NCBI RefSeq assembly: GCF_002007565.1
Contig: NZ_CP015625.1
Span: 62,001 to 126,000, forward strand
Direction: 5' to 3'
Source of the DNA: Ditibartonella choladocola
GTDB lineage: Bacteria; Pseudomonadota; Alphaproteobacteria; Rhizobiales; Rhizobiaceae
DNA length: 64,000 nt
Below the pieces are notes generated by a model, which was given only the letters and a program-made list of their open reading frames with translations, was not told the DNA's origin and made no database searches. The first letter of the stretch is position 1; every line of letters starts with the position of its first letter. Positions 20,839-22,765 of this stretch are shown here, in pieces. A program made the position numbers and the translations under genes.

Positions 20839-21549
20839 ATGAAAAAATCATGCCCCTCTTTGACTCGCCGCACTTTCCTTGTCGGAAGCGGAACAGCTTT
20901 TATCGGGGTCTTGAGTGGCTGCACAAGCAGCGGAATTTTGGGAGATGGTTATAGTAATATGACCACCGGAGCAATCCCGCGCCCCCCGATCGGAATTGAT
21001 AAAGGTTTTACAACGCCCGACAAAATGTATGCGGCCGTTCATGAAGGTCCTTATACGCTTGCCGCCATACCTTATGATAAAGTTCCAAAACAATTTCTAC
21101 GGCAGATTGTACCCAATCCGACAGGCGAACCACCCGGTACAATTGTTGTGAGTCTGAAAGACCATTTTCTTTATTTCATCCAGCCTGACGGCGATGCTTT
21201 GCGCTATGGTGTCGGTATTGGTGCAGCCGGTTTCCAATGGTCGGGGCGTGCCAATGTCCAGTTTAAACGTGAATGGCCGCGCTGGACCCCGCCTGCTGAA
21301 ATGATTGGTCGAAAACCCGAACTTGTCGAATATCGTAATGGTATGGAACCGGGGCCGACCAACCCGCTTGGTGCGCGCGCGCTTTATATCTATCAAAACG
21401 GGCGCGATACGGGATATAGAATCCATGGTTCACCGGAATGGTGGTCCATCGGGCAATCAATGTCATCCGGTTGTATCAGGCTGATGAATCAGGATATTAT
21501 CGACCTCTACAATCGGGTTCCGGTTGGAACACCGATTGTAGTAGGTTAG
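20839..21549 (+). CDS. L,D-transpeptidase, probable Tat-exported lipoprotein
   Basis: 236 aa from ATG 20839; an in-frame upstream codon (20806) would bury the signal. The N-terminus reads SLTRRTFLVGSGTAF, a twin-arginine signal, followed by a lipobox LSGC, so it should be anchored to a membrane facing the periplasm. The YkuD catalytic domain (about residues 90-236) ends with HGSPEW and SSGCIRL, giving the catalytic His and Cys. Such enzymes make 3-3 peptidoglycan cross-links or attach proteins to peptidoglycan. Confidence 0.93.
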   Translation: MKKSCPSLTRRTFLVGSGTAFIGVLSGCTSSGILGDGYSNMTTGAIPRPPIGIDKGFTTPDKMYAAVHEGPYTLAAIPYDKVPKQFLRQIVPNPTGEPPGTIVVSLKDHFLYFIQPDGDALRYGVGIGAAGFQWSGRANVQFKREWPRWTPPAEMIGRKPELVEYRNGMEPGPTNPLGARALYIYQNGRDTGYRIHGSPEWWSIGQSMSSGCIRLMNQDIIDLYNRVPVGTPIVVG

Positions 21550-21682
21550 TCCTCATTATATGGGAGGAGGCGTATAATGAGAAGAAAGGGGTGCCCGACT
21601 AGACAAGCGGGGGCAACTCTATCGGGCACCTTGGGGGATACCAGGTTTCGTCCTGGTGCTCACTAAACGAGTGGCCGAATAT
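21550..21682 (+). ncRNA. Candidate structured RNA with four consecutive hairpins
   Basis: Four stems follow each other: CTCATTATA/TATAATGAG (21552-21560 with 21573-21581), GGTGCCCGA/TCGGGCACC (21590-21598 with 21622-21630), ACCAGG/CCTGGT (21640-21645 with 21652-21657), and CACT/AGTG (21661-21664 with 21670-21673). Loops are G-rich (GGGAGGAGG in loop 1, GGGGG in loop 2). The first loop is a perfect Shine-Dalgarno and the ATG at 21577 lies in its stem; a 29-codon frame runs 21577-21666 but is full of codons rare in the neighbours (AGA, AGG, CTA, GGG). It may be a leader of the next gene or an independent RNA. No T-tract terminator; family not recognised. Confidence 0.5.
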
Positions 21683-21725
21683 AAAGTTCCAAAAAATTTT
21701 GATTTCATTCAAAAGGGCTTGAAGA

Positions 21726-22088
21726 ATGTTGAAAAAGACTTTCCTTATGACATTTATCCTGGCTGCTCTTTATGGCTTTGCGGCCAATGCACAAGCTTCT
21801 TCAGTGCGTAATCAAACCTATATTTGTGAACGTGGTGTGGCGTTGCAGGCGATTTTTATCAAAGATAAAGATGATTCTTATGCGGTTATTTTTGTTGATG
21901 GAAAATTGGTAGCAATGCATGAAGATGTCAAAGGGCCGGAAAGGCTTTTTATTGCTGTTGACGATCAGGATAATTATCGTTTCCATATAAAGGGGAACGA
22001 CGCAAGTCTCACCTATAAAGATAGCGACCAGTCAAAGGCAGAAAAAGTCGTTTTACAGTCCTGTCAGGCCGATATAGCGGAGGATTAA
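21726..22088 (+). CDS. Secreted protein resembling MliC-type lysozyme inhibitor
   Basis: 120 aa. Sec signal peptide in the first 24 residues (MLKKTFLMTFILAALYGF, cleavage near ANAQA). The mature part follows the MliC pattern: YICERG near the start, an aliphatic strand with AVIFVDG, FHIKGNDASLTY, and a second Cys at VVLQSC, so the two cysteines can form the usual disulphide. MliC proteins block host c-type lysozyme in the periplasm. The assignment is by eye and tentative. The stop overlaps the tenA start by one base. Confidence 0.6.
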   Translation: MLKKTFLMTFILAALYGFAANAQASSVRNQTYICERGVALQAIFIKDKDDSYAVIFVDGKLVAMHEDVKGPERLFIAVDDQDNYRFHIKGNDASLTYKDSDQSKAEKVVLQSCQADIAED

Positions 22089-22765
22089 TGGAAAAACCCG
22101 ATTTTGAACGAGGTCCTTTCGGAAAGTTGCGGATGAAGGCTGGCGAGCTGTGGCAGGCTTATGTTGGCCATTCTTTTGTTAGTCAATTGGCAGCGGGAAC
22201 ACTGGCCGAGAAATGTTTCAGAAAATTTTTGACGCAGGACTATTTGTTTCTGGTTCATTTTTCCCGCGGTTATGCGCTTCTCGCGGCAAAATCGACAAAT
22301 ATTGCAGATATCAGGGAAGCACTTGACGGTCTCAAATCCATTATTGAAGAAATGCCGCTTCATGTCGCTTATGCCAAAAAATGGGGTATTTCCGAACAGG
22401 AAATGAGTAGAGCAACCGAGGCATTGGAAACAATTGCCTATACGCGCTACGTTCTCGATGTCGGATATGCCGGCGACCGGCTTGATTTGATGGCCGCTCT
22501 ATTGCCCTGCGTTGCCGGTTATGCCGAAGTCGGCTTGCGGCTTGCAGGTTCCAAAACCACTGTCTTTAATGGCAATCCCTATTCGGAATGGATTAAAAAT
22601 TACGAAAGCGAAGAATATATCAAAGGGGTGATAGCCTTTATTGATAGTTTCAACAAGCTTGCGGAAAAATATGAAGGGGAAGTGCGTTTTCAACGTTTGA
22701 GCGAAATCTTCAATACGGCTACGCGTCTCGAAACCGAATTCTGGCAAATGGGGCTTGATGCGTAA
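22088..22765 (+). CDS. tenA: TenA-family aminopyrimidine aminohydrolase / thiaminase II
   Basis: 225 aa, all-helical, the usual length. TenA salvages the pyrimidine part of degraded thiamine. Visible features: KLRMKAGELWQAY at the start, FLTQDYLFLVHFSR near residue 45 with the active-site Asp, ALLPCVAGYAEVG near residue 138 with the catalytic Cys, and TRLETEFWQMG at the end with the catalytic Glu. GGAGG lies just before ATG 22088, inside the preceding gene. Pairing with an MliC-like gene is odd. No TPP riboswitch signature is visible upstream. Confidence 0.88.
   Translation: MEKPDFERGPFGKLRMKAGELWQAYVGHSFVSQLAAGTLAEKCFRKFLTQDYLFLVHFSRGYALLAAKSTNIADIREALDGLKSIIEEMPLHVAYAKKWGISEQEMSRATEALETIAYTRYVLDVGYAGDRLDLMAALLPCVAGYAEVGLRLAGSKTTVFNGNPYSEWIKNYESEEYIKGVIAFIDSFNKLAEKYEGEVRFQRLSEIFNTATRLETEFWQMGLDA

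Follow-up and report, generated by a model that had tools for sequence, protein, structure and literature searches.

In bee-gut Bartonella and related bacteria, hairpins between an L,D-transpeptidase gene and an MliC-like gene most likely form a minus-strand small regulatory RNA

Under stress, PhyR releases the sigma factor EcfG from NepR. In Caulobacter crescentus, the EcfG-linked small RNA (sRNA) GsrN is described as pairing with mRNAs through a C-rich loop, and the same account gives sigma-EcfG-linked sRNAs as predicted in Rhizobiaceae and Brucella and proposes that they are prevalent in Alphaproteobacteria (PMC5869019). A different group, the alpha-r14 family (NfeR1, SmelA075), is described with three hairpins that each carry CCUCCUCCC (PMC10746234, PMC3927594). 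In the literature collection that was searched, we found no report of an EcfG-linked sRNA in bee-gut Bartonella or B. tamiae. Here we analysed, by comparative sequence evidence throughout, a group of hairpins within a 64-kb stretch of DNA (the window, meaning the whole stretch), and we conclude that in bee-gut Bartonella and their relatives they most likely represent a small regulatory RNA of the minus strand. The locus would most likely be an sRNA of a known kind, lying on the strand opposite to that chosen in an earlier sequence-only reading, with an anti-Shine-Dalgarno (anti-SD) hairpin added in one clade. We consider it quite probable that this is a trans-acting sRNA located between ldt and the MliC-like gene, that it is started by EcfG, and that its C-rich loop (C-loop) pairs with G-rich mRNAs; what carries this interpretation in the sequence is the minus-strand polarity of the structure, the conserved promoter boxes and the invariant C-loop (Table 1).

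Table 1. Coordinates in the window of the proposed sRNA parts and of the neighbouring genes
Feature	Coordinates	Strand	Basis or remark
EcfG-type promoter	21666..21690	-	-35 GGAAC 21690-21686, spacer 16, -10 CGTT 21669-21666
Probable transcription start region	21658..21662 (about 21660)	-	placed by distance to the -10 box
5' hairpin ACCAGG...CCUGGU	21640..21657	-	fold; helix 1
C-loop hairpin	21590..21630	-	fold; helix 2
Loop UGCCCCCGCUUG, presumed pairing region	21604..21615	-	identical in 14/14 genomes found (partly by construction, see text)
U-rich tail CCUUUCUUCUC, weak candidate end of short form	21579..21589	-	U-run in three relatives
Third hairpin, anti-SD loop CCUCCUCCC (21570-21562)	21550..21582	-	9/14 genomes; first hairpin of the sequence-only reading, on the opposite strand
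15-bp hairpin antisense to ldt end, possible long-form 3' end	21507..21541	-	fold of 156-nt form
L,D-transpeptidase gene (ldt), context	20839..21549	+	Pfam YkuD E 2.5e-25 on 20842-21549
MliC-like secreted protein gene, context	21726..22088	+	Pfam MliC 21.6 bits, just below cut-off 22
tenA, context	22088..22765	+	TIGR04306 142.5 bits, above cut-off 130

The sequence-only reading had described a folded RNA element of four perfect stems, and its coordinates proved correct (GGGAGGAGG at 21562-21570 within a stem at 21550-21582, an ATG at 21577 that opens a frame of 29 codons, 21577-21666). That a folded element exists is borne out by the plus strand of 21540-21700, whose fold has an energy of -62 kcal/mol as against -42.95 (sd 3.6) in 200 dinucleotide shuffles, none of which is as good (z -5.29). 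Minus-strand pieces of 75, 114 and 149 nt have z values of -5.04, -4.81 and -4.22, respectively; because the two strands are similarly stable, fold stability cannot tell which of them is transcribed. The hairpins are real, with the caveats that the second contains an internal loop and that the fourth stem (CACT/AGTG) comprises only 4 bp. The minimum-energy fold does not show this fourth stem as a local hairpin, and its position overlaps the -10 box of the promoter on the minus strand. As judged by eye, it is fully Watson-Crick in one of the 14 genomes that carry the element, that of the window, while G-U pairs preserve it in three others. The plus-strand loops GGGAGGAGG and CAAGCGGGGGCA are the complements of two C-rich loops on the minus strand. 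No Rfam family matched at the gathering threshold in the window (four sub-threshold matches, E 1.6-8.3, lie around the element), and no known RNA family was found at threshold in the relatives' loci, apart from a tRNA in one of them (L023).

Using a pattern with at most 3 mismatches, the element was detected in 14 of 71 genus genomes, one of which (G012) has one more 3-mismatch match elsewhere, and a covariance model built from the 14 sequences recovered the same 14. In 397 genomes of the order, this model returned under strict filters the window's own genome and two weak matches (E 0.008 and 0.017). A scan of named genomes yielded 19 stretches, 8 from other bacteria and 11 from Bartonella (B. 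apis PEB0122, B. apihabitans BBC0178, B. sp. M0177, B. tamiae Th239 and seven uncultured). The most divergent copy (L039; L101 in B. tamiae) is separated from ldt by about 360 bases, past an AT-rich insert; its 5' part is longer and its -10 box reads CATT. The 14 element genomes are the sole ones among the 71 with a close ldt ortholog (91-100% identity), the best match in the other 57 reaching 60%; L,D-transpeptidase matches number 6-9 per genome in the 14 and one in each of the other 57. A dispersed repeat was considered and rejected, as the window's own genome has a single full copy, its other matches being 14-23 bases long with E 0.11 or worse, and plasmid relatives gave no match to the element. 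Many of the weak matches among relatives were also discarded, since they consist of one 17-base word (query 66-82), which is tRNA gene-like in the two that were read (L002, L014).

Comparison across the related genomes showed that the stems are conserved with compensatory changes. With the 14 rows collapsed to 13 distinct sequences (for the covariation and wobble counts alike), 96.8% of 221 cells in the two helices are paired (96.9% in helix 1 and 96.8% in helix 2), and 18 cells show double changes, a number that none of 500 shuffles reaches; these changes fall at 2 of 5 pairs in helix 1 and 4 of 12 in helix 2. The covariation score of 0.352 is likewise higher than in all 500 shuffles (0.206, sd 0.018) and slid partners give at most 0.126, while two further measures are unremarkable, namely the 6 double-change pairs (reached by 37/500 shuffles) and the 13 further pair types (442/500). 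With regard to the strand, the variable pairs contain 17 G-U cells at seven pairs versus 1 A-C cell when read on the minus strand, and the numbers swap on the plus strand (this outcome is favoured by the structure prediction having been made on the alignment of the minus strand, where G-U is preferred to A-C, and neither the cells nor the related sequences are independent). In 6 of the 14 genomes, it is the plus-strand version of the C-loop stem that has the greater stability, and so energy alone does not decide the strand. In three of the 14 (G006, G008 and G089), the counterpart of the U-rich tail is CCUUUUUU(A/C)UUUUC, which puts a long U-run behind the minus-strand C-loop stem. The window itself shows no terminator-like site between 21450 and 21780. 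Together, the promoter, the G-U polarity and this U-run favour the minus strand as the one predicted to be transcribed. The C-loop, UGCCCCCGCUUG, contains five Cs, sits in the second hairpin and folds with a 2-bp inner stem; its invariance is in part a product of the search, whose pattern was centred there and tolerated no more than 3 mismatches.

An EcfG-type promoter precedes the hairpins on the minus strand. The motif GGAAC-N16-CGTT is exact in 13 of the 14 genomes and reads GGAAC-N16-CATT in G003, CATT being a used -10 variant in the published description of the EcfG promoter consensus (PMC7083833). Among ten aligned genomes, 9/9 bases of the promoter boxes are invariant versus 5/16 of the spacer (invariance of promoter and hairpins was counted in 10, 9 or 3 genomes, with G003, G006, G008 and G089 left out and G012 also left out of the nine). 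The motif on its own is weak, with 35 exact genome matches versus 95 for the reversed control. When it was combined with a C-run and searched in the 71 genomes, the matches were this locus in 13 of the 14 genomes plus one place each in G030 and G019, and the reversed control gave 8 matches in 8 genomes. Both additional places were rejected as unlike the element, the first being antisense to a long frame and the second a T-/C-rich stretch with a weak fold. This second place, L160 (G019:C7:73510-73582), belongs to a genome without the element, and the EcfG-like promoter there stands before several long C-runs in T-rich surroundings. In the named-genome scan, the promoter precedes the loop by 48-78 bases in 11/11 Bartonella stretches (CGTT in ten, CATT in B. 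tamiae) and in 0/8 unrelated ones, which identifies the genus as Bartonella. The weight of the promoter evidence lies in its fixed place and its conservation, and these suggest that the RNA is probably switched on by the general stress sigma factor (EcfG-type).

The corresponding regulators were found in the genus. NepR is present in 69 of the 71 genomes, with no match in G033 and G018, the latter carrying the element in an assembly that is 85% complete. For the window's genome, NepR itself passes a family model; its neighbouring frame, which has ECF-type domains, scores above the cut-off of NF009169, an equivalog model for an RNA polymerase sigma factor (363 bits, cut-off 321), and the frame across from that one passes the PhyR model NF006623 (392 bits, cut-off 240). 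It is from this position beside NepR and PhyR that we take the sigma factor to be EcfG. The element itself, at 83.6 kb of the 2,907-kb contig, is far from the phyR-nepR-ecfG locus (NepR at 2,619.7 kb). Close to the latter, an exact GGAAC-N16-CGTT (L081 4045-4069; G000:C1:2622044) is followed after about 90 bases by the ATG of a short frame that looks secreted, making it a candidate EcfG target.

The evidence above can be set against other explanations of the locus. The sequence-only reading had placed the function on the plus strand, where the region would act as a leader or 3' UTR whose first hairpin hides the ribosome binding site of a short peptide and tunes the MliC-like gene and tenA. The strong SD-like loop 6 nt before the ATG speaks for it, as do the good fold of the plus strand, the conservation of this hairpin (32/33 bases invariant in nine genomes versus 31/85 ldt third codon positions) and the downstream position of tenA in the same direction, which is also seen in G006, G008 and G089 (frames named by likeness). 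However, GGGAGGAGG-ATG occurs in 9 of the 14 genomes and is lacking in the other five, and the length of the frame that starts at the ATG varies, with 29 codons in the window as against 18 (five genomes), 46 (two) and, after a frame shift, 28 (one), so that no conserved small peptide was found among the 14; the suspicion that the element is RNA rather than peptide is supported. The MliC-like protein (NCBIfam lysozyme inhibitor 46.2 bits, below the cut-off of 127) is matched in 11 of the 71 genomes, all within the 14 with the element, and no match was found in G006, G008 and G089, implying that the RNA is more than a mere leader for the MliC-like gene. With the promoter and the G-U polarity also pointing the opposite way, and the U-run of three relatives favouring the minus strand, we regard the plus-strand switch as very improbable. 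Regulation in cis, by an antisense RNA acting mainly on ldt or the MliC-like gene, appears unlikely too, if somewhat less so: the RNA sits between both genes, is antisense to any read-through from ldt and is accompanied by the ldt ortholog in all 14 genomes, but the C-loop persists both in the three genomes that gave no MliC match and in G003, where ldt is about 360 bases away, and an invariant loop within changing stems suits pairing in trans better.

It is harder to choose where the trans-acting sRNA on the minus strand ends. The third hairpin is diverged in G012 and absent from G003, G006, G008 and G089, and the sRNA could consist of the first two hairpins (about 80 nt), the third being a separate structure such as an ldt mRNA end or a second promoter region, a possibility that we take seriously while leaning slightly against it. 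Besides the restriction of the third hairpin to 9 of the 14 genomes, the U-run directly after the C-loop stem in three genomes and a single minus-strand sigma-70-like match within the third hairpin (mean of 0.4 in shuffles) would fit the shorter RNA. On the other hand, the minus-strand loop of the third hairpin is exactly CCUCCUCCC of known anti-SD sRNAs, and the U-rich tail is weak where this hairpin is present and strong in the three genomes without it, an argument qualified by G012 and G003, which have weak tails and lack the third hairpin as well. The link to the anti-SD motif that was noticed earlier is real, whereas the sponge role drawn from it is not favoured, because the evidence for the minus strand would place the anti-SD loop on the RNA itself. 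TATAAT was also observed on both strands inside the third hairpin (21555-21583). Beyond it, the last codons of ldt (21507-21541) form a 15-bp hairpin in which changes on both sides in G014 keep a pair (by eye), and the coding end of ldt may be under RNA-structure constraint; this hairpin lies within coding sequence, with no U-run behind it, and may serve as the 3' end of a long form.

A possible mode of action can be proposed. In response to stress, EcfG, freed via PhyR, would start the RNA at GGAAC-N16-CGTT, and the strong stem would display UGCCCCCGCUUG for pairing with G-rich stretches of mRNAs, by analogy with GsrN. In the window's clade, transcription may read on past a weak termination point behind the C-loop stem and into the third hairpin, whose CCUCCUCCC loop could pair with Shine-Dalgarno sequences and lower translation, which is the least certain step. 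It is conceivable, though we advance it tentatively and with more doubt than expectation, that this is a two-loop stress sRNA driven by EcfG, in which the C-loop remained unchanged from bee-gut Bartonella to B. tamiae while one clade gained the CCUCCUCCC hairpin and its terminator stayed or became weak, and that the efficiency of termination decides whether the product is a short RNA with specific targets or a longer one that reduces translation widely during stress. As for targets, the 10-mer AAGCGGGGGC, taken as the exact target site of the C-loop, has 14 matches across four genomes (8 for the reversed control). The element itself accounts for four of them, and inspection by eye revealed no common gene start among the other ten. 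The candidate katG was rejected, as no TIGR00198 match was found in 4/4 genomes (the control found TIGR00198 in 5 of 14 known genomes). If real, the RNA would provide bee-gut symbionts with a post-transcriptional arm of the stress response, in a host that is tractable. It would also illustrate how an sRNA can hold its pairing loop constant as its stems, its terminator and the genes around it vary.

Compared with the described systems, the element comes close to the alpha-r14 family in carrying the CCUCCUCCC loop motif in one hairpin. Membership was nevertheless rejected, since three such hairpins are required in the family as described, and here there is one in 9 of the 14 genomes and none in five, the other loop being different. 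Judging from its description (PMC7717549), BbsR14 of Bartonella bacilliformis is also a Bartonella sRNA with anti-SD motifs in stem-loops, but it has two loops with TTCCTCCTAA. GsrN and the EcfG-linked sRNAs, in the account available (PMC5869019), differ from the element in several respects: the C-rich loop of GsrN is the 5' loop and has six Cs, whereas here it has five and lies in the second hairpin; such sRNAs are typically located near phyR-nepR-ecfG, with C. crescentus as the exception, whereas the element is far away; the GsrN target katG was not found in the four genomes tested; and the element has the extra anti-SD hairpin. What they share with it, at the level of features, is an EcfG-type promoter, a C-rich loop in the 5' half, a predicted length in the class of about 100 nt and, for some members here, a putative intrinsic terminator (U-run, 3/14). 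By this analogy, the best reading is that the RNA works like GsrN, with a clade-specific anti-SD hairpin in 9 of the 14 genomes.
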